From Gemmatimonadota bacterium (lineage in GTDB: Bacteria > Gemmatimonadota > Gemmatimonadetes > Longimicrobiales > Gaopeijiaceae): DNA of 64,000 nucleotides. The number at the start of each line of letters is the position of its first letter. The first letter of the stretch is position 1. The stretch spans positions 1 through 64,000 of the forward strand of contig JAUIEJ010000010.1 in NCBI GenBank assembly GCA_030428885.1. Direction: 5' to 3'. Under the pieces are notes generated by a model that saw only the letters and a program-made list of their open reading frames with translations, ran no database searches and had not been told where the DNA came from. This document shows positions 48,265 to 64,000 of this stretch, in pieces. The position numbers were made by a program, and so were the translations under genes.

Positions 48265-48834
48265 TCAGGTGCCGCCGTCGATGCGGTCGGCCAGCCAGGC
48301 CCGGGCGAAGCGCCAGTCCCGCTTCACCGTAGCCTCCGAGACCTCCAGCGCGGCGGCGGTTTCCTCCACCGACAGCCCGGCGAAGAACCGGTATTCCACG
48401 ACCCGGGCCTGGCGGGGGTTGGCCGCGTCCAGGTCCGAGAGGGCCGCATCGAGGGCCAGGACCGAGTCCGCCGAACGAACCGACCCGTGCAGCGCCTCAT
48501 CGAACGAGACCGGGACCTGGCCCCCGCCCCGCTTGATGGCGGAGCGTCGCTCGGCGGCGTTCACGAGGACCTGGCGCATGGCCCGGGCGGCCACCCCGAA
48601 GAAGTGCTTCCGGTCGGTCCAGTCCAGGGCCCTGGACGGCGTGAGCTTGACGTAGGCCTCGTGGACCAGGGCCGTGGTGTTGAGGGTCTCCGACCCGCTC
48701 GACCGTCGGACCGACCGGGCGAGCTTCCTCAGTTCGCCGTAGACGACCTCGAACAGCGCGTCGAACGCCTCCGCGTCGCCCTCGCGGGCGCGGTGGAGGA
48801 GCCGCGTGACCTCGTCGGACCTGGAGGCGGACAT
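48265..48834 (-). CDS. ECF-type sigma factor (kinase-linked, TIGR02999-like)
   Basis: 189 residues. Region 2: FDALFEVVYGELRKLARSVR, then SETLNTTALVHEAYVKLTPS, where ordinary ECF factors have an acidic D-A-E-D stretch; here it is N-T-T-A. Then DRKHFFGVAARAMRQVLVNA. Region 4: ARVVEYRFFAGLSVEETAAA and LEVSEATVKRDWRFARAW. No anti-sigma gene is present; instead the gene sits 71 bp downstream of a TPR serine/threonine kinase on the same strand. In Vibrio ECF43 sigma factors (EcfP with kinase PknT), a Thr in this position is phosphorylated to switch the factor on, which is the likely model here. Confidence 0.9.
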   Translation of the reverse strand: MSASRSDEVTRLLHRAREGDAEAFDALFEVVYGELRKLARSVRRSSGSETLNTTALVHEAYVKLTPSRALDWTDRKHFFGVAARAMRQVLVNAAERRSAIKRGGGQVPVSFDEALHGSVRSADSVLALDAALSDLDAANPRQARVVEYRFFAGLSVEETAAALEVSEATVKRDWRFARAWLADRIDGGT

Positions 48835-48905
48835 GGGTGGGCGGGAGCCGGAGGGGAATTCGAATCGGGAATTGGACCCCGTTCGGGCGTGGCCGCAAGC
48901 CGGCG

Positions 48906-51458
48906 TCAGTCCCCGCCGCCCGCCCCTCCCGCCGCTTCCGATTCCCGGATGGCCCGCACCGCGTCGGCATCGGCACCCCGTCCCGCGCGCCGATAGGCTT
49001 TTTCCAGTTCCAGGAGCGTCGCCGCGCGACCCCGGGCCGCTGCGCTGGTGGGCGGGCTTCCGGGAGGATTGGCGTCGAGAAGGCGCCGGAGCGCGGATTC
49101 CGCCTCTGCGTGCCGACCGGCCCGAGACCACCCCCGGGCGACGCCCCGCTCGGCCACCTGCCGGGCGGCGGACGCGGCGGGGCCGGCGGTGGACAGGAGC
49201 TCCAGGGCGCGCCCGTAGGCGGCCTCGGCCGCGGCGCTGTCGGCCACGGCGTCCAGGGCGAGGGCCAGTCCGGTGAGGACCGGGGCGAGGGCCGGGGCCT
49301 CGCCGCCGTACAGGGCCTCGGCCACCTCCACCGATCGTCGGGCGTGGACGAGCGCCCCCTCGGCGTCGCCGGACCGGCGCCGATGCTGGGCGAGATTGGC
49401 GAGCACCACCAGCAGCAGTCGACCGCCGTTCTCGGCGGCTTCGGCCCGGGAGACGGCGAGACGGTAGAGAGAATCGGCCCGTGCCGTCTCGCCCCGGGTG
49501 CTCAGCAGGTTGGCGTATTCCGTCAGGAGGGCGATGACGGGGGTGGCGCCCTCGGGGGTCCGCCCCGCGTGGAGTCGCAACGCCTCGGCGAAGGCGCTGT
49601 CGGCCGCCTCCAGGTTCCCCACCGTGCGATGGAGAACGCCCAGGTTCGTCCACCCCACGGCGGCCTGCGCGTCGTCTCCCCGCAGGGCCCGGAACATCTC
49701 GAGCCCCTCCCGCTGATCCGCGATGGCCCCGTCCAGGTCACCCGTCTCGTGCCGAAGTCCGGCCCGCAGGTACAGGGCCCCGGCGAGGTCGGTGGGGGGG
49801 CCGAGTCGGCGCAGGGCGGGAACGGCGTCGTCCAGGGCCGCCGCCGCCGTGGTGAACTCGTCCCGATACAGCGCGCTCCGGGCCTGGAGCACCCGAACCC
49901 GCGCCGCCGTGGTGTCCCGCCCCCCGGCCCGGGCCCCGGCGAGGGCCGCGGCCAGCAGGGTGTCGGCGCCCTCCCAGTCGCCCAACTCCACGGCGACTTC
50001 GCCCAGGGAGCGGACCACTTCGGGGTCGGCCTCCGCCCCGGACGAGGCCGACAGGGCGAGACTCCGGGTCCAGAGGTCCCGAGCCTGTTCGTAGTTCCAG
50101 AGGGAGAAGTGGGCGCGGCCCAGGGAGAGCAGCAGGCGCGCCTGGACCTCGGGGCGGTCTTCGAGCTCGGTGAGCGCCCGCTCCGTCGACCGGTCCAGGA
50201 GATCGACCACCCGCAGAGTATCCGCGCCCGGGTCGCCGCCCACGGGGTTCACCGACTGGAAGGTCCCCTCGAGAAACGACGCCAGGGCTTCGGCCCGGTC
50301 CCGTTCGACCCGGGCGAGGTTCCGCTGCTGGACCACCACGGTCAGGCCCGCCACCAGGGCGGCGACGCCGGCCGTCAGCCCCGCCACCGGCCGCCAATGG
50401 CGACGAAGAAACCGTCCGGCGCGGTAGACGCGGGTGGCCTTCCGGGCTGCCACGGGCCGGTTGTCCAGGGCCCGCTGCAGATCGTCCACGAGGGCGTCCA
50501 CGGTGGGATACCGCGCCCCCGGATCCTCCTCGAGGGCCCGCAGGAGGATCGCGTCCAGGTCCCCCCGAAGTGCGGGGCGCCCCGACGCGGCGCTGGGTCG
50601 AAGCCCGGGCCGACCCGAGGGCCGCGCGCCGGTGAGGAGTTCGTGGAGCACCACGCCCAGCCCGAAGACGTCGGTGGCGGTGGTGACGGGGGCTCCGGAG
50701 GATTGCTCCGGCGCGGCGTAGGCCGGCGTCAGCGCCACGTCGCCGACCCGGGTGTGATCCTCGGCGGGCCCGTCCAGGAGTTTGGCCACGCCGAAGTCCA
50801 GGAGCTTCACCTCGCCCCGGTCGTCGACGAAGATGTTCGACGGCTTCAGGTCGCGGTGCACGACCAGGTTGCGGTGGGCGAACTGGACGGCTCCACACAC
50901 CGCCAGGAAGAGACGGATGCGAGCCCGGAGTCCCCATTGCCGCTCGTCGGCCCAAAGCGTGATGGGCTTCCCGTCCACCACCTCCATGACCAGGTAGGGG
51001 CGGCCGTCATCGGCGATTCCCCCGTCGAACAGCGCCGCGATGTTGGGGTGTTCCAGGTCGGCCAGGATCTGGCGCTCCGAACGGAACCGACGCAGCACCT
51101 CGTCGGAGTCCATGCCCCGCTTGACCAGCTTGATGGCCACGCGCCGTCGGTAGGCCCCGTCGGATCTCTCCGCCAGGTAGACGGAGCCCATGCCGCCGCG
51201 ACCGAGGACGCCCAGGATCCGATACGGCCCGATGGTCTCGGGTGAATCGTCGGCGTCGTCGAGGAGTTCGGCCACCAGGGCCTCGAACGGTGAGTCCAGG
51301 GGCGTGGTCGTCTCGCCGTCCCGATGGAGGAGGGACCGCAGGCGACCCTCGAGCTCGCCGTCTCCGCCGCACGCCTCCCGAATGGCCTCCTCCCGCTCAC
51401 CCGCGGGCCGATCCACCACGCGATCGAAGGCGGCGTTGAGACGGGAGAGGTCGGTCAT
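48906..51458 (-). CDS. Serine/threonine protein kinase with periplasmic TPR domain (sigma-linked, 1)
   Basis: 850 residues. Residues 1-75 are a short helical pre-domain; the kinase domain is ~76-340: GRGGMGSVY at ~87, RRRVAIKLVKRG, catalytic VHRDLKPSN (~200), LLDFGVAKLL, APEQSSGAPV. A single membrane helix follows (~354-373: PVAGLTAGVAALVAGLTVVV), then about 470 residues of TPR pairs (RPEVQARLLLSLGRAHFSLW, AAVGWTNLGVLHRTVGNLEA, and so on). The kinase would act in the cytoplasm and the TPR part in the periplasm. It precedes the ECF sigma factor in the same direction, so sigma phosphorylation is the likely role. Confidence 0.9.
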   Translation of the reverse strand: MTDLSRLNAAFDRVVDRPAGEREEAIREACGGDGELEGRLRSLLHRDGETTTPLDSPFEALVAELLDDADDSPETIGPYRILGVLGRGGMGSVYLAERSDGAYRRRVAIKLVKRGMDSDEVLRRFRSERQILADLEHPNIAALFDGGIADDGRPYLVMEVVDGKPITLWADERQWGLRARIRLFLAVCGAVQFAHRNLVVHRDLKPSNIFVDDRGEVKLLDFGVAKLLDGPAEDHTRVGDVALTPAYAAPEQSSGAPVTTATDVFGLGVVLHELLTGARPSGRPGLRPSAASGRPALRGDLDAILLRALEEDPGARYPTVDALVDDLQRALDNRPVAARKATRVYRAGRFLRRHWRPVAGLTAGVAALVAGLTVVVQQRNLARVERDRAEALASFLEGTFQSVNPVGGDPGADTLRVVDLLDRSTERALTELEDRPEVQARLLLSLGRAHFSLWNYEQARDLWTRSLALSASSGAEADPEVVRSLGEVAVELGDWEGADTLLAAALAGARAGGRDTTAARVRVLQARSALYRDEFTTAAAALDDAVPALRRLGPPTDLAGALYLRAGLRHETGDLDGAIADQREGLEMFRALRGDDAQAAVGWTNLGVLHRTVGNLEAADSAFAEALRLHAGRTPEGATPVIALLTEYANLLSTRGETARADSLYRLAVSRAEAAENGGRLLLVVLANLAQHRRRSGDAEGALVHARRSVEVAEALYGGEAPALAPVLTGLALALDAVADSAAAEAAYGRALELLSTAGPAASAARQVAERGVARGWSRAGRHAEAESALRRLLDANPPGSPPTSAAARGRAATLLELEKAYRRAGRGADADAVRAIRESEAAGGAGGGD

Positions 51459-55559: not shown

Positions 55560-56083
55560 TCGGCCCCGACTCCGTAGGCGTCGCGCCACAGCCTCCGGTG
55601 GTGGAGTTCGTGGCCCGCGATGATCCAGGCCAGCGCCCGCACCGTCACCTGGGCGCCGGAGGCCGTCCCCGCGGCACCCCAGGCGTCGGACGGGAGTCCC
55701 TCGAGAAGCGCCACGAGACCACCCCGGACCGCCTGCCACTCCACCAGATGTTTCGCCAGGGGGCGGCCCTCGGCGTTGGAGGCCGGCGTCCACGCGTCCT
55801 GATCCATGCTCGGCAGCGCCTCCTGCCCGCCCCGGGCGAACCAGAGGGCCCGGTGGGTGAACACCCGCTCGGCGTCCACCACGTGGGCCACCGATTCCAC
55901 GAGGCTCCACTTCCCCGGAGCGTAGCGGTGGAGCTCCTGGTCGGCCGAGGCCCGGGCCAGGAGATCGCGGGTCCCGATCCACTGGACCGCCAGGGTCTCG
56001 ACGATGTCGCCGTCGGGGACGAGGTCGATGTACCTGGCGTAGTAGGGAGCGAACTCGTCGGCACCCGGCCGAGCGGCCCTCAT
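55556..56083 (-). CDS. DinB-family metal-dependent four-helix protein
   Basis: 175 residues, ATG at 56083 overlapping the dipeptidase stop (ATGA); the long frame upstream is shadow. The fold marks are YAPGKWSLVESVAHVVDAER (first His), ALPSMDQDAWTP, and IAGHELHHRRL (His pair), which complete a three-His metal site. DinB proteins include bacillithiol and mycothiol transferases and other thiol S-transferases. The partner thiol is not shown. Confidence 0.87.
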   Translation of the reverse strand: MRAARPGADEFAPYYARYIDLVPDGDIVETLAVQWIGTRDLLARASADQELHRYAPGKWSLVESVAHVVDAERVFTHRALWFARGGQEALPSMDQDAWTPASNAEGRPLAKHLVEWQAVRGGLVALLEGLPSDAWGAAGTASGAQVTVRALAWIIAGHELHHRRLWRDAYGVGAE

Positions 56084-57288
56084 CGGGCCTCTCCTGCCCC
56101 GGGGCCGGCGCCGTCGTCGCCCACGAGGCCGCCTCCGTCCAGTTCGTCGATGGTGGCCGTGGAGGGCCCCCGCTCCCGCTGGGCGCGGCGGGCCGCCGCT
56201 TCGGCCTCCCGCATGACCCGCAGCACGTTGCCCCCCACCAGGGCCCGGAGGTCGGACTCGGTCCACCCCCGGCGCTCCAGCTCCTCCAGGAGCGCGGGAT
56301 AGGTGGACACGTCCTCGAGGCCGAGGACCACCGTGCTGATCCCGTCGAAGTCGCCCCCCAGTCCCACGTGATCGATGCCCGCCACGTCCCGGATGTGCTC
56401 GATGTGGTCGGCTACGTCGGTGAGAAGGGCCCGGGGGGCGTCGGCCGGGGGACCCTCGTAGGTCCGGAGCGCCTCGCTCACGAAGCCCGGGACGAAGGTG
56501 ACCATGACCACGCCGCCGTTGTCCGGAAGGCGCCGGAGCACGTCGTCGGGGACGTTGCGGGGATGGTCGGTGAGGGCCCGGGCCGAGGAATGGGAGTAGA
56601 TGACCGGCGCCTCGGCGATGTCCAGCACGTCGTGCATGGTGGCGGGCGAGGTGTGGGAGAGATCCACCAGCATGCCCAGGCGGTTCATCTCCCGCACCAC
56701 CTCCTGTCCGAAGCGGGTGAGGCCGTCGTGGACGGGATCGTCGGTGGCGGAGTCGGCCCAGTCGGTGTTGCAGCCGTGGGTCAGGGTCAGGTACCGCGCT
56801 CCGGCGGCATAGTAGGCCCGGAGCGCCCCCAGGGAGTTCTCCAGAACGTGCCCCCCCTCCATCCCCATGAGGGAGGCGATGCGCCCGGCGCCGAACTCCC
56901 GCTCCACGTCGGACGCCGAGAGGGCCGGACCGAAGGCGTCGGGGTAGGTCTGGAAGAGCTGCTGGGCGATGTCGATCTGCTCGAGCTGGACCTTGGCGGC
57001 CCCCTCGGCCACGGCGTCGCAGGGCACGTAGATGGACCAGAACTGCCCCCCCACCCCGCCGGCCCGCAGCCGCTCGAGGTCGGTGTGGCCCGATACCCGC
57101 CCCCGGAGGTCGTAGGCCCCCACGTCCCGGTTCGCCGAGTTGCGGATCTCCCACGGCAGATCGTTGTGGCCGTCGATGAGGGGGGTGGTGCGGAGGACCC
57201 GGGCCACCAGCTCCGACGACGTGTCCTGGGCCGAGACGGGTCCCGCCAGGGCCAGGCCGGCGGCGACGAGGGGAACGAGGCGACGCAT
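56080..57288 (-). CDS. Exported membrane dipeptidase (peptidase M19)
   Basis: 402 residues from ATG 57288. Signal peptide PLVAAGLALAGPVSAQ. The binuclear zinc site of renal dipeptidase is complete: LIDGHNDLP (H-x-D), LMGMEGGHVLEN (Glu), VDLSHTSPATM (His), VIYSHSSARAL (His), and VGLGGDFDGI (Asp). The enzyme hydrolyses dipeptides, often D-containing or beta-lactam-like. It heads the dipeptidase-DinB-PNPOx operon. The C-terminus is Gly/Glu-rich (DGGGLVGDDGAGPG). Confidence 0.9.
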   Translation of the reverse strand: MRRLVPLVAAGLALAGPVSAQDTSSELVARVLRTTPLIDGHNDLPWEIRNSANRDVGAYDLRGRVSGHTDLERLRAGGVGGQFWSIYVPCDAVAEGAAKVQLEQIDIAQQLFQTYPDAFGPALSASDVEREFGAGRIASLMGMEGGHVLENSLGALRAYYAAGARYLTLTHGCNTDWADSATDDPVHDGLTRFGQEVVREMNRLGMLVDLSHTSPATMHDVLDIAEAPVIYSHSSARALTDHPRNVPDDVLRRLPDNGGVVMVTFVPGFVSEALRTYEGPPADAPRALLTDVADHIEHIRDVAGIDHVGLGGDFDGISTVVLGLEDVSTYPALLEELERRGWTESDLRALVGGNVLRVMREAEAAARRAQRERGPSTATIDELDGGGLVGDDGAGPGAGEAR

Positions 57289-57463: not shown

Positions 57464-59131
57464 ATGGCCGACGCCGGCGTTCTGTCGCCGACCCTCGATC
57501 CCACTCCCGTCCTGAAGGCTCTCCGCCGTCTCGACGGCCGGGCCACCGTGTCCGACGTCACGGCGGCCACGGGACTCGACCGGGCCGAGGCCGAGGCCAC
57601 CCTTCGACGGCTTCTGGAGCAGCGCCGGGGCCACCTGGAGGTGGGGGAGCGGGGGGATCTGGTCTACCGCTTCGAGAAGGGCCTGCTCCACCGCGACGCC
57701 GAGTCGGTCTGGACCCGGCTCAAGCGGGGGGCGTGGTCGGCCTTCCAGGTGGGCTTCAAGGTCTGGATCGTGGGGATGCTGGTGGTCTACACCGTCGTCT
57801 TCGTGGCCCTCCTCCTGGCCGCTCTCTTCGCCAATCGCGACGGCGACGGCGGCGGGTGGGAGGGCGGCAGCGGCGGCGGGCGACGGGGGGGCGGCGTGCA
57901 CCTGCCCATGGGGGACTTCTGGCTGTGGTACTGGCTGTGGGGGCCCCGATGGAGAGGGCGTCCCTACTACGGGGAGGGCTACGGCGACCGCCAGGGTGTG
58001 CGGGATCGCCGGAACGGTCCGCCGTTCTACAAGAAGGTCTTCGCTTTCGTGTTCGGGCCCGACGAGCCCACCCGCTCCCGGGAGGACCGGGACCGGGAGG
58101 CCCTGCGCTTCATCCGGGCCCGTCGCGGCGTGGTGAGCGCCACCGACTACGTCCAGCTCACCGGGATGGAGCTCCAGGAGGCCGACGAGGAACTGGCCCG
58201 GCTCATGGCCGCCCACGAGGGCGACGTCCAGGTCACGGACGACGGCACGCTCCTGTACGTCTTTCCCGAACTCATGGTGAGCGCCCACGGGGCGGTTCAG
58301 GAGCGGGAACCGGCTCCGGCGTGGCGGCGCCTGGAGGCGGCCCGCCCTCTCACGGGCAATTCCACGGGCTCCAACGCCCTCATCGTGGCCATGAACGGCT
58401 TCAATCTCGCCGCGGCCGCAACGGCTCCGTTCTTCATCTTCCCGCGCCTGGGGATCGGGGGAACGGCGGCCGAGATCGGCCTGGTGTGGATTCCCGTGGC
58501 CTTCAGCACCGTCTTCTTCGCCGTTCCCGGCCTCCGGTGGCTCGGCGTCACCCGGGAGAACACGCGGCGGGCCCTGCGCAACGTCCGGAAGGCCGTGCTG
58601 GGCCTGGTCTCGAAGTTCAGCCTGTCGGGCGACGAGGCCTCGGCCCTTCCCGAGGCCGAGGCCGCACTCCGGGTGAAGGGACTGAAGGCCTCGAAGCTGC
58701 CCCTGGCCCGGGACGCGGTGCAGCCCACCCTGGACCGTCTCGTGGCGGAGTTCGACGGAGAGGTGGACGCCGACGCCGACGGTCGCACGTCGTTCCGGTT
58801 CCCCCGCTTCCGGGAGCAGATCGAGGCGGCCCACCGGGCCCGGGGCGATCTGGCCCTGGAAGGCCGGACCGTGGGCGAGATCGTGTATGCCAGCGACGAC
58901 GACGAAGCCACTGCGGGCCGCCGGGAACTGGAAGCCTTCGACCGGGAACTGGCGGGAGCCGACACCCTTCCTCCGGCCGAGGAGTCCCGCCCCGCCCTCC
59001 CGCCGCCGGACACGCTGGCGGCCTACCTCAACGACCCGGATCGCCTGGCGATCCGCGACGAACGGGAGCTCGCCGTGCTCCAGCAGCAGATGCAGGATCG
59101 GGCCAAGGCCCCCACGGGAGGGCGGCGATGA
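57464..59131 (+). CDS. Membrane protein with several winged-helix domains, linked to a sigma-kinase module
   Basis: 555 residues. Three winged-helix-like segments: ~15-75 (ALRRLDGRATVSDVTAATGL, RAEAEATLRRLLEQRRGHLE), ~205-275 (FIRARRGVVSATDYVQLTGM, ELQEADEELARLMAAHEGDV) and ~395-450. A membrane helix lies at ~98-122 (VWIVGMLVVYTVVFVALLLA), a Gly-rich and aromatic loop at ~125-175 (DFWLWYWLWGPRWRGR), and further helices at ~305-350. The arrangement is a little like the chloroplast/cyanobacterial At5g03900-type proteins (low confidence). The stop overlaps the ECF sigma gene (ATGA) and that one overlaps the kinase (GTGA), so it may be part of a signal module. Confidence 0.7.
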   Translation: MADAGVLSPTLDPTPVLKALRRLDGRATVSDVTAATGLDRAEAEATLRRLLEQRRGHLEVGERGDLVYRFEKGLLHRDAESVWTRLKRGAWSAFQVGFKVWIVGMLVVYTVVFVALLLAALFANRDGDGGGWEGGSGGGRRGGGVHLPMGDFWLWYWLWGPRWRGRPYYGEGYGDRQGVRDRRNGPPFYKKVFAFVFGPDEPTRSREDRDREALRFIRARRGVVSATDYVQLTGMELQEADEELARLMAAHEGDVQVTDDGTLLYVFPELMVSAHGAVQEREPAPAWRRLEAARPLTGNSTGSNALIVAMNGFNLAAAATAPFFIFPRLGIGGTAAEIGLVWIPVAFSTVFFAVPGLRWLGVTRENTRRALRNVRKAVLGLVSKFSLSGDEASALPEAEAALRVKGLKASKLPLARDAVQPTLDRLVAEFDGEVDADADGRTSFRFPRFREQIEAAHRARGDLALEGRTVGEIVYASDDDEATAGRRELEAFDRELAGADTLPPAEESRPALPPPDTLAAYLNDPDRLAIRDERELAVLQQQMQDRAKAPTGGRR

Positions 59132-59715
59132 GCGATCCCTCGGAAGTCACCCGCCTCCTGGTCGCCATCAACGACGGTGAGGACGACGCCCGGGCCCGCC
59201 TCGTGCCCCTGGTCTACGACGAACTCCGCATCCTGGCCGAGAGCTACATGCGTCGGGAGCGCCCGGGACACACGCTCCAGCCCACGGCCCTGGTCAACGA
59301 GGCGTGGATGAAGCTGGCGGACCAGCAGCGGGTGGAGTGGAAGGGACGGGCCCACTTCTTCGGGATCGCCGCCCAGGCCATGCGCAGGATCCTGGTGGAT
59401 CACCACCGGCGGCGCAGCGCAGCCCGGCGGGGCAGCGGCAAGCACGTCACCCTGGTGGAAGACGCGGCGGACACCTTCTCCGACCCCCTGGACTTCATCG
59501 CGCTGGACGGCGCCCTGGACGAGCTCGCGGAGATGGATCCCCGAGCGGCCCGGATCGTGGAACTGCGGTTCTTCGGAGGGTTGAGCGTCGAGGAGACCGC
59601 CGAGGTCATGGACGTCTCCACCCCCACGGTGAAGCGGGACTGGAGAACTGCGAAGGCGTGGCTCTACCAACGGCTCGGAGCCGCACCGGGCCGGGGCGAC
59701 GACGAATCCGCGTGA
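59128..59715 (+). CDS. ECF-type sigma factor (kinase-linked, TIGR02999-like)
   Basis: 195 residues. Region 2: LVPLVYDELRILAESYMRRE, then GHTLQPTALVNEAWMKLADQ, again with Q-P-T-A in place of the acidic motif. GRAHFFGIAAQAMRRILVDH and RRRSAARRG follow. Region 4: ARIVELRFFGGLSVEETAEV, MDVSTPTVKRDWRTAKAWL. No anti-sigma gene. It is sandwiched by four-base overlaps between the winged-helix membrane protein (ATGA) and a TPR kinase (GTGA), a stronger coupling than in the module at 48-51 kb. Confidence 0.92.
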   Translation: MSDPSEVTRLLVAINDGEDDARARLVPLVYDELRILAESYMRRERPGHTLQPTALVNEAWMKLADQQRVEWKGRAHFFGIAAQAMRRILVDHHRRRSAARRGSGKHVTLVEDAADTFSDPLDFIALDGALDELAEMDPRAARIVELRFFGGLSVEETAEVMDVSTPTVKRDWRTAKAWLYQRLGAAPGRGDDESA

Positions 59716-62249
59716 CGGGCCCTTCGCGGTGGGAGCGCACCAAGGAGCTCCTGGACCGCACGCTCGACCTCCCCCGCGACGCCCGGGAGGCGTTTCTCCG
59801 CAAAGCCACGGCCGGCGACCCCGAGTTGTTCGACGAGGTGTGGGCGCTGGCCCGGGCCGCCGAACCCGATCTCGACGCCCTGGAGCACCCGGCGGCCCTC
59901 TTTCTGGAGGGAGAGGGGGGAGACGAGGATCTGGAGGAACTGGAGGGCCTGGAGGGCCGGCAGGTCGGCCCCTACCGCCTGACCCGGGTTCTGGGGCGAG
60001 GGGGGATGGGGATCGTCTACGAGGCGGAACGCACCGGGGAAGTGGGCGGCACCGTGGCGGTGAAGCTCATCAAGCGTGGAATGGACAGCGCCCTGGTGTC
60101 GCGGCGGTTCCACCGGGAGCGGAGGATCCTGGCGCGGCTGACCCACCCCCACATCGCCCATTTCCTGGACGGCGGGGTCACCGACGATCACCGCCCCTAC
60201 TTCGTCATGGAGCGGGTCGAGGGCACGCCGGTGACCGCGTTCTGCGCCCGGCACGAGATGTCGGTGGAGGGGCGGATCCGCCTCTTCCTCCAGGTGCTGG
60301 AGGCCGTGGGGTTCGCTCATCGGAATCTGGTGGTGCACCGGGACATCAAGCCCACCAACATCCTGGTCCGGGAGGACGGGGTGGTGAAGCTCCTGGACTT
60401 CGGCGTGGCGAAGGTCCTGGGAGAGCCCGAGGGAGGGGACGCCACCCTGACCCGCCTGGGCGGGCGGGTGCTGACGCCCTCCTACTCCAGCCCCGAGCAG
60501 ATCCGGGGCGAGCCCGTGTCCACCGCCTCGGACATCTACTCCCTGGGCGTGGTCCTCTATGAAATCCTCGCCGGGCGGCCTCCCTTCGAGCTCGACACGG
60601 CCTCCATGGCGGAAGTGCAGCGGGTCGTGAGCTTCGAGGAGCCCACGCGCCCGTCCGACGCGGCGGGGCGGAAGTCCGGGAGCGCCGGCCTCACCGCACC
60701 GGCCGCCACCGCGCCCCTGGCTCGCCGGAAGCTCTCCGGCGACCTGGACGCCATTCTGCTGAAGGCCCTCCGGAAGGAACCCGAGCGGCGGTATGAGACC
60801 GCCATGGCGTTTCACGACGACCTCTGCCGGTTCCTGGATCAACGGCCGGTTCGGGCCCGCCGCGGCACCCTGGGCTACCGCACCGAACGGTTCCTGCGAC
60901 GGAACCGGGCGTGGGTGGCCGCCGGGGCCGTGGTGGCGGCGGTGGTGACGGGCGGAGCCATCTGGGGCGGGCGGCAGGCCGCCGAAGTGCGCCGTCAGGC
61001 CGCCCTGGCCGAACAGCGGGTCGACGACGTGCGGACCCTGGTCAACACCCTGCTCTTCGAGGTCCACGACGCGGTGGCCGCCCTCCCCGGCTCCACGGGA
61101 GCCCGGTTGCTGATCCTGGAGCGGGCCCACGAACGCCTCGACGCCGTCACCGACGCGCCTCCCGACGACCCGGCCCTCCTCATGGAGCTGGCCGAGGCGT
61201 ACCGCCGCCTCGGCGAGGTCGAGGGACGCCCCACCGGGCCCAGCCTGGGCGACCTCACCGCGGCCCGGGGGAGCTTCGAGGAAGGGCTGGAGCTGGCCCG
61301 CCGGGCCGTGGCCGCCGACTCGAACCACCTGGGGCGGCTCCGCTCCCTGGGCCTGCTCCACGAGCGCCTCGCCGGCACCCTGGCCTTCGCCGGCGAGGTC
61401 GAGGAGGGGGTCGAGCACTCGCGGCAGGCCCAGGCCATCTACGAACGGATCGCCGACGCCTGGCCCGACTCGGCTCGCCACCAGCTCACCGCGGTCATCG
61501 GACGCATCAACCTCAGCGACTTCACGGGCCACCCGAGCTTTCCCAATCTCGGGCAGGTGGACGAGGCGGAGGCCGGGTACGAGGCCGCCCGGGACCGCCT
61601 GGGCCGCCCGCCCCTGGCCGACGAGGGGTCGTACGGAGTGGTGCGGTACCGGGGGCTGGTGGAGGAGCGACTGGCCCGGATGCTCCGGGTGCGGGGAGAC
61701 CTGGAGGGGAGCATGGCCCGCTACCGGGCGTCGCTGGAGGTGCGGCGGGCCCTCTACGAGGACTACCCCGGCGACGACGACGCCTGGCGCGACCTGGGGG
61801 TGACCCACCAGAACCTGTGCAGCGTGGCCCAGGGGCTTGGGCGATTCGACGAAGCCCGGGTCGATTGTGACCGGGCCCTGGAGGTCTACACGGCGCGCTG
61901 GCGAGCCGACTCCCTCAATGCCCAGACCCTCTCCGACCTGGCCTCGGTCCACGATTCCTACCAGGAGCTCCACCTCTCCCGGGGCGACACGGTCCAGGCC
62001 CTGGGGCACCTCGCCGAGATGGGCCGCTGGGCCGAGCGGCGGCTGGATCGGGACCCCACCTCCCTCCCGCCCCGCCGGACCCTTCTGGACGCCCTCCTGA
62101 CCCGCGGCCTGATCCTGGCCCGCCGGGGCGCGCCCGTCCCCGATCTCGACGAGACCCTGGCCCTCTCCGACGGGCTGTCCGCCCAGGGCCATCTCTCCGA
62201 CGACGACCTCCGACGCACCGACGAGCTCCGCCGCCTCACCGGGGGGTGA
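59712..62249 (+). CDS. Serine/threonine protein kinase with periplasmic helical/TPR domain (sigma-linked, 2)
   Basis: 845 residues; GTG start overlapping the sigma stop. Kinase domain ~85-380: GRGGMGIVY at ~94, GTVAVKLIKRGMDSA, VVHRDIKPTN (~207), LLDFGVAKVL (~227), YSSPEQIRGEPV, FLDQRPVRARRG at the end. Membrane helix ~401-420 (VAAGAVVAAVVTGGAIWGG). The C-terminal 425 residues are helical TPR-like pairs (LLMELAEAYRRLGEVEGRP, LRSLGLLHERLAGTLAFAGE, AWRDLGVTHQNLCSVAQGLG). A kinase for the preceding sigma factor is the natural reading. Confidence 0.92.
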   Translation: MTGPSRWERTKELLDRTLDLPRDAREAFLRKATAGDPELFDEVWALARAAEPDLDALEHPAALFLEGEGGDEDLEELEGLEGRQVGPYRLTRVLGRGGMGIVYEAERTGEVGGTVAVKLIKRGMDSALVSRRFHRERRILARLTHPHIAHFLDGGVTDDHRPYFVMERVEGTPVTAFCARHEMSVEGRIRLFLQVLEAVGFAHRNLVVHRDIKPTNILVREDGVVKLLDFGVAKVLGEPEGGDATLTRLGGRVLTPSYSSPEQIRGEPVSTASDIYSLGVVLYEILAGRPPFELDTASMAEVQRVVSFEEPTRPSDAAGRKSGSAGLTAPAATAPLARRKLSGDLDAILLKALRKEPERRYETAMAFHDDLCRFLDQRPVRARRGTLGYRTERFLRRNRAWVAAGAVVAAVVTGGAIWGGRQAAEVRRQAALAEQRVDDVRTLVNTLLFEVHDAVAALPGSTGARLLILERAHERLDAVTDAPPDDPALLMELAEAYRRLGEVEGRPTGPSLGDLTAARGSFEEGLELARRAVAADSNHLGRLRSLGLLHERLAGTLAFAGEVEEGVEHSRQAQAIYERIADAWPDSARHQLTAVIGRINLSDFTGHPSFPNLGQVDEAEAGYEAARDRLGRPPLADEGSYGVVRYRGLVEERLARMLRVRGDLEGSMARYRASLEVRRALYEDYPGDDDAWRDLGVTHQNLCSVAQGLGRFDEARVDCDRALEVYTARWRADSLNAQTLSDLASVHDSYQELHLSRGDTVQALGHLAEMGRWAERRLDRDPTSLPPRRTLLDALLTRGLILARRGAPVPDLDETLALSDGLSAQGHLSDDDLRRTDELRRLTGG

Positions 62250-62314
62250 TCCCTTCCGACGCCGTTCCGCGCGTGTCCGCATGAAGATCCCACACCGGGT
62301 GCAGGAGCGGACGG

Positions 62315-64000
62315 ATGATCGGCACACAGATCGGGCGGTACCGGATCGACAGCGAGCTGGGTCGAGGAGGCATGGGCGTCGTCTATCGCGGCACCCAGGT
62401 CACCCTGGACCGCACGGTGGCGATCAAGATGCTGCCGGCCCATCTGGCCGACGGCGACAACCGGGAACGCTTCCGCCGTGAAGCGCTGACCCTGGCCCGC
62501 CTGGCCCATCCCAACATCATCCACATCTACGACGTGGAGGATCAGGACGGCCACTCCTTCATCATGATGGAGCACGTGGGCGGCGGATCCCTGGGCGATC
62601 AGATGTCTCCCGGGACCACCTTCTCGGCTGCCCGGTGCGTCGAAATCTTCTCGCCGATCCTCTCGGCGCTCCACGCCGCCCACCTGGCCGGCATCGTCCA
62701 CCGGGACATCAAGCCCGACAACATCCTCTTCACCGCCTCGGGCCGCCCCAAGCTCACGGACTTCGGCGTCGCCCACATGCGGGACGCCGGCAGCAAGACC
62801 CGCACGGGGGTCATGCTGGGCACGCCGTACTACATGTCGCCCGAGCAGGCCCAGGGCCGGCGCGTCACCGCCGCCGCCGACCTCTACGCCGTGGGTGTGG
62901 TGCTGTACGAAATGCTGAGCGGCGGGGTGCCCTTCACCGGCGAAGACCCCCTCTCGGTGGCCCTGAAGCACGTTCAGGAGCCCCCCCGGCCCCTGGCCGA
63001 ACTCCGCCCGGACCTCCCGGCCGAACTCTGCGCCCTGGTCCATCGGGCGCTGGAGAAGGACCCCACCGCCCGCTTCCACTCGGCGGCGGCCATGCAGGAC
63101 GCCCTGGAGTCGGGGTCGTGGGCCCCGGGACGCACCACCCTGGACCCGGATTCGTCGGGGGCCCGGGTGGCGGTCCCGATCCTGCCCGAGGTTCCGGCCC
63201 CCGAAACCCCCGAGCCCCCCGCCGCCGTGTCCGGCGCCCATGATGCGCCCTCCACGTCCGTCGGGGCCGCCACCGCCGCGGGGCCGCCTTCCCTTCCCCC
63301 CCAGCCCGCCCCGGCGTCGTCGTCGGGGACGGGGGACGCCGTTCCCTCGGCGCCCTCCGGAGCCGGATGGGCGACGGGGATGGGCGACACGGGCCGCCGC
63401 ATGGGCGCCTGGCTCGCCCGGCCGGCATGGCGGGGCCTGCCCATGGCCTTCTGGGCCGGGGCCGCGGCGCTGGCGCTGGCGCTGGTGTGGATCGGCGCCG
63501 ACGCCCTGGCGGGCCCCAACCCCGCCTCAGGAGACTCCTCGGAGGAGACCGAAGCCGTGCCCCCGGTGCAGGACGGCGCTCAGGCGTCTCGGGAAACCCC
63601 TCGGGTGCCGGTGGCGGGCCCGTCGTCGGGCGGATCCACCGGGCGCACCTCCAGCCCGGCCGACCCCCGGACCCGGCCCGAACTCTCGGACGAGGAGCGG
63701 GAGGCCCTCCGGACCCTGGCCCGGGGAGGCGAGACACAGGCGAACCCCGCCGACGACCTCATTTCGGACACCGCCCGGACGCAGACCATCATCGACCGCA
63801 TCGATGCGGTGGCCGACGACGACGGTCCCGTGACCCTCGACGACCTTCGGGACCGCGATCCCGATCCTGAACCGGATCCCGACCCCACCCCCACGTCCCG
63901 GGAGCTCGTCCAGAGCCTGGTGGAGCGGCAGATCCGGGCCGTGGAGACGGCCAACCGGGCCCTCTTCCTCCAGGACTTCCACCCCGACGTCCGGGACGCC
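62315..64000 (+). CDS. Serine/threonine protein kinase, partial (cut by window end)
   Basis: 562 codons present, still open at 64000. ATG 62315 has AGGAG 7 nt upstream. Kinase domain ~8-270: GRGGMGVVYRGTQ, VAIKMLPAHL, IVHRDIKPDNILF, LTDFGVAHMRD, GTPYYMSPEQAQG, YAVGVVLYEMLSGGVPF. This is a PknB/Pkn-type domain, different from the two TPR kinases, which have an N-terminal helical pre-domain. A Pro/Ala/Ser-rich linker leads to one membrane helix (~375-393: AFWAGAAALALALVWIG), then an acidic periplasmic part (RDRDPDPEPDPDPTPT) and the start of a new helix (VERQIRAVETANRALFLQDF). 65 bp after the previous kinase, so possibly the same operon. Confidence 0.9.
   Translation, partial: MIGTQIGRYRIDSELGRGGMGVVYRGTQVTLDRTVAIKMLPAHLADGDNRERFRREALTLARLAHPNIIHIYDVEDQDGHSFIMMEHVGGGSLGDQMSPGTTFSAARCVEIFSPILSALHAAHLAGIVHRDIKPDNILFTASGRPKLTDFGVAHMRDAGSKTRTGVMLGTPYYMSPEQAQGRRVTAAADLYAVGVVLYEMLSGGVPFTGEDPLSVALKHVQEPPRPLAELRPDLPAELCALVHRALEKDPTARFHSAAAMQDALESGSWAPGRTTLDPDSSGARVAVPILPEVPAPETPEPPAAVSGAHDAPSTSVGAATAAGPPSLPPQPAPASSSGTGDAVPSAPSGAGWATGMGDTGRRMGAWLARPAWRGLPMAFWAGAAALALALVWIGADALAGPNPASGDSSEETEAVPPVQDGAQASRETPRVPVAGPSSGGSTGRTSSPADPRTRPELSDEEREALRTLARGGETQANPADDLISDTARTQTIIDRIDAVADDDGPVTLDDLRDRDPDPEPDPDPTPTSRELVQSLVERQIRAVETANRALFLQDFHPDVRDA

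Follow-up and report, generated by a model that had tools for sequence, protein, structure and literature searches.

The question raised by positions 57464-62249 of the window (the whole stretch of 64,000 nucleotides analysed here, which is part of contig C23 in the 5.39 Mb Gemmatimonadota assembly G000) is whether three closely packed genes form a signalling unit of their own. A first-pass annotation had read the region as a sigma-kinase module preceded by a membrane protein with winged-helix domains, and had proposed the membrane protein as an extra component that would make the three genes an undescribed signalling unit.

All three genes lie on the plus strand. The first (57464..59131) begins with ATG and encodes a 555-aa membrane protein with three predicted winged-helix repeats. 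Its stop codon, TGA at 59129-59131, overlaps the ATG (59128-59130) of a gene for an ECF sigma factor (59128..59715), forming the tetranucleotide ATGA. The sigma stop codon (59713-59715) in turn overlaps the GTG start codon (59712-59714) of the gene for a Hanks-type Ser/Thr kinase with C-terminal TPR repeats (59712..62249), forming GTGA. The initial description of three genes joined by four-base overlaps is confirmed in its coordinates, overlaps and gene identities. In the sister species G069, both overlaps are kept exactly, with the same gene order and strand. Scans of the region for sigma-70 promoters and terminators found nothing. The three genes are probably co-transcribed in the two sister species, in an arrangement specific to this lineage, and the conservation of both four-base overlaps points to a coupling of membrane-protein and sigma-factor synthesis. 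A membrane dipeptidase gene (56080-57288, minus strand; Peptidase M19, E 8e-122) is divergent from the 555-aa gene. It also adjoins the 555-aa gene in G399 and is one gene away in the same-genus genome G075; it was not found at this place in G069.

The sigma factor matches both PF07638 (2e-56, 191 bits) and TIGR02999 (2e-65, 220 bits) over their curated cut-offs. By these two families it is classified as ECF43-like, a predicted assignment that covers ECF43 proper or a neighbouring group. The kinase matches Pkinase at 3e-46, in addition to the TPR repeats; its catalytic motifs GRGGMG, VAVK, HRDIK and DFG are intact, and one membrane helix is located near residue 409. Together with the GTGA overlap, these families and motifs bear out the reading of the two genes as a sigma-kinase module of a known kind. 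Such sigma factors are common in G000, because 36 matches to PF07638, 18 of them strong, were detected in the genome. Another sigma-kinase module is located at 48265-51458 on the minus strand, in which an 850-aa open reading frame with a kinase match (48906-51458) stands upstream of a sigma gene (48265-48834) with the motif TLNTTALVHEA.

The Thr motif to which the first-pass annotation had drawn attention in the sigma factor is real (Thr53, in QPTALVNEA); it is, however, a feature of the family and nothing special to this protein. The equivalent of Thr53 is present in every correctly framed sigma paralog aligned from G000, an alignment from which one row, sig_L003, was left out for its wrong strand or frame. 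The motif was rejected as evidence particular to the window's sigma factor, since the Thr is common to the whole family alignment.

Kinase-driven activation of a sigma factor has been shown experimentally for EcfP/PknT of Vibrio parahaemolyticus, in which PknT phosphorylates EcfP on the second Thr of its STTA motif (PMC8999054), and for EcfK/PknS of Xanthomonas citri, in which PknS has been shown to target the equivalent residue, T51 of EcfK (PMC13147305). All ECF43 members are without the DAED sequence (PMC8999054). As in these two systems, the window's ECF sigma gene adjoins the gene of a Hanks-type kinase, the acidic DAED is missing from region 2.2, and a Thr occupies the position of the phosphorylated second Thr of STTA, with QPTA compared with STTA by the published description. 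Unlike them, the window's kinase carries C-terminal TPR repeats, and the pair stands behind an unrelated membrane-protein gene. Because Thr53 matches the second Thr of EcfP by position and T51 of EcfK is a target of PknS, kinase-dependent activation would be expected for the window's sigma factor as well. By this analogy, the pair appears to be a further case of the already known phosphorylation-activated kind, with putative activation.

The 555-aa protein, for which the first reading of the sequence had suggested winged-helix domains, is predicted to carry three of them, with putative DNA binding, at residues about 11-76, 204-272 and 364-452. This prediction draws on internal repeats, modelled structural units and fold matches. 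In a profile comparison of segments of the family alignment, the first and second repeats (WH1 and WH2) match each other with a probability of 98.4% (E 6.7e-15), WH2 and WH3 with 96%, and WH1 and WH3 with 93%; a control segment reached 5%. In the AF2 model, helix-helix-helix-strand-strand units are located at residues 14-70 and 206-266 with pLDDT near 80, and these modelled repeats 1 and 2 match MarR/Zur/Z-alpha folds (Z about 8). Repeat 3 draws its support from the profile comparison, and the separate model of the C-terminal part has low confidence. The whole-protein model was built from three sequences, and this small input accounts for its low confidence outside repeats 1 and 2. About three membrane helices are expected from hydrophobic peaks near residues 112, 316 and 348. 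Conserved features of the family include the motif PPFYKKVFAFxFGP and a TGN at 297-299.

In Pfam the 555-aa protein has no family above the cut-off, its matches all lying below, and a sequence search of the PDB with the family profile returned nothing reliable. The fold of the repeats is that of MarR/IclR-type winged-helix domains, from which the 555-aa protein differs in spreading three repeats over a membrane protein and in its Pfam matches below cut-off. The repeats may also resemble a chloroplast protein family (At5g03900), a locus that is mentioned in a chloroplast envelope proteome paper.

The distribution of the 555-aa family was surveyed in 395 Gemmatimonadota genomes. Matches at E up to 0.001 were found in 78 of them, about 66 extending over most of the protein, with the family of the window and another one, f7, contributing most of them. 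The gene is nearly always single copy and its contexts are varied. Relatives among named records come from a Longimicrobiales MAG and a Gemmatimonadetes MAG, and no relative was found in plasmid records. The 555-aa family is a widespread stand-alone gene in Gemmatimonadota.

The neighbourhoods of 62 homologs were searched with a panel of ECF43-like sigma factors and with the window's kinase. An ECF43-like sigma gene adjoins the 555-aa gene in only two of them, the window and the sister species G069; the other 60 neighbourhoods across Gemmatimonadota have no such sigma gene adjacent. At two further loci a kinase gene lies at a distance of 2 to 7 kb, unaccompanied by a sigma gene. The sigma-kinase arrangement is absent from the same-genus genomes G075 and G288, whose proteins are 63% and 62% identical to that of the window, and in G075 no ECF43-like sigma factor was detected anywhere in the genome, though the 555-aa gene is present. 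A closer protein (83% identity) is encoded in G399, in which the contig ends inside the gene and gives no view downstream. Homologs of the 555-aa protein are usually found without sigma-kinase neighbours, and the proposal that this protein is part of a three-part signalling unit is not upheld. With the sigma-kinase pair behind the 555-aa gene in just two sister species, the three genes do not amount to a new signalling unit of general occurrence. Agreement of these two species is itself weak evidence for a unit, since they share the order of genes around the locus over more than 16 kb anyway.

Downstream of the pair, on the same strand, is a block of Ser/Thr-phosphorylation genes that runs past the window (contig C23 62315-68582, plus strand). 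In both G000 and G069 its order is kinase, PP2C phosphatase, 148-aa FHA protein, protease with an FHA domain and 292-aa protein, after which the run continues with a 281-aa protein. The first gene (62315..64000, continuing to contig position 64222, plus strand) encodes a second Ser/Thr kinase of 635 aa. In the protease a trypsin-like domain and a membrane helix are combined with an FHA domain at the C-terminus; the 292-aa protein is a probable outer-membrane protein. Signs of the block were found in only five of the sampled genomes: G000, G069 and G117, and partly G337 and G321, whose copies each run into a contig end. In G117, a distant genome, an ECF sigma gene and the gene of a TPR-containing kinase converge on the block from the other side, and the distribution search found no 555-aa protein in this genome. 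The G117 sigma factor beside the block is 47% identical to that of the window, no closer than the other sigma factors of that genome, and the two sigma-kinase pairs are not clearly orthologous by these comparisons. After the block in G000, genes for an nSTAND1-TPR protein (with a weak PDC-S60 match), an SLOG-like protein and a patatin-like phospholipase occupy 69434-75167 of contig C23 on the minus strand. The group, which has PADLOC effector matches and is likewise found together in G069, may be a defence locus.

The 148-aa protein has an N-terminal tail followed by an FHA domain at residues 77-134; among proteins of solved structure, GarA (E 1e-10) and OdhI (E 2e-8) are its best relatives. 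These regulators are of similar size and layout, and in them the FHA domain binds the protein's own N-terminal tail once this has been phosphorylated (PMC2784874). Thr18 (in PALARTV) and Thr38 (in RRT) of the 148-aa protein are conserved in three genomes and are candidate phosphorylation sites; the G117 version is only 51% identical, yet keeps the Thr motifs. The block resembles the actinobacterial pknA-pknB-ppp-FHA operon, in which a kinase, a PP2C phosphatase and FHA proteins are likewise encoded together. Unlike that operon, it also includes the FHA-bearing trypsin-like protease and the outer-membrane-like protein; no PASTA domain was found in its kinases and no cell-division genes in the cluster, most of which lies outside the window.

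The two kinase genes are separated by a non-coding gap (62250..62314) that is strongly conserved with the sister species. Between G000 and G069, identity reaches 95% over the 40 nucleotides from 62247, which begin with the kinase stop codon; this is above most coding stretches. Windows of that size are equally conserved in only 66 of 6755 cases, some of which overlap the gap, and the mean identity of the aligned stretch is 0.71. In the gap no multi-copy box of genome G000 was found, its folding is no better than that of shuffled sequences, and comparison with the sequence preceding the second kinase gene in G117 gave no significant match. The gap may be the promoter of a second transcription unit.

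This last point bears on the possibility that the real unit is formed by the sigma-kinase pair and the kinase-PP2C-FHA-protease block, as a single, undescribed pathway of Ser/Thr phosphorylation. In it, a phosphorylation-activated sigma factor would be connected with a GarA-like FHA switch and with a membrane protease whose FHA domain is cytoplasmic, and the 555-aa gene would be an incidental first gene. The position of the block directly downstream in G000 and G069 agrees with such a pathway, as do the relationship of the 148-aa protein to GarA/OdhI with its conserved N-terminal Thr motifs and the contact of a pair with the block in another orientation in G117, in whose genome only three such ECF sigma factors were found. 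The independent cases, however, are only two, with pairs in G000 and G117 that are not clear orthologs; the visible side of the block in G337 has no sigma gene, G321 is a short contig, and the strong conservation of the gap points to a separate promoter for the block. We regard this pathway as possible but rather unlikely.

Co-option of the 555-aa protein in the two sister species is an improbable reading, in which it would regulate the pair through its cytoplasmic winged helices or its membrane parts, either by retaining or freeing the sigma factor or by relaying a signal from the membrane to the kinase. Because both four-base overlaps are conserved, with identical order and strand, functional coupling of this protein with the pair may exist in these two species, and a membrane-anchored protein with winged helices would suit such a role. 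Against it stand the 60 other neighbourhoods without co-occurrence and the retention of the family motifs PPFYKKVFAFxFGP and TGN in both species' proteins, which have gained no domain; this is the picture to be expected of a protein that retains its ancestral role. It is distinctly improbable, moreover, that the sigma factor lacks phosphorylation control, the Thr motif being just the conserved region 2.2 of PF07638 sigma factors and the kinase acting on other targets. A Thr present in every correctly framed family member aligned does carry no specific information; in the two characterised ECF43 systems, however, the corresponding Thr is used and is phosphorylated by the adjacent kinase, and the window's sigma and kinase genes share four bases.

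The explanation that we consider quite probable is an ordinary ECF43-like sigma-kinase pair, which in two sister species stands behind an unrelated, widespread membrane-protein gene and before a rare Ser/Thr-phosphorylation block. Gene anatomy, protein families, catalytic motifs, distribution and neighbourhoods are its observed basis. In the working proposed for it, the membrane kinase would sense a signal and, by homology with the characterised systems, phosphorylate Thr53 of the sigma factor. Phosphorylated Thr53 would supply the negative charge that is missing in region 2.2, allowing the sigma factor to bind RNA polymerase. The downstream PP2C phosphatase may then reset the phosphorylation, and the FHA proteins of the block may read it. 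The 555-aa protein would most likely have a conserved membrane job of its own and be tied to the pair only through shared transcription and translational coupling.

The plausible unit of the first-pass annotation is in this way corrected, its membrane protein being a common stand-alone gene. Attention shifts instead to the rare block in which a kinase, a phosphatase and two FHA proteins are combined with a trypsin-like protease. If this block works with the sigma factor, phosphothreonine switching of the GarA type would be linked to phosphorylation-activated sigma factors, two mechanisms that the cited papers treat separately.
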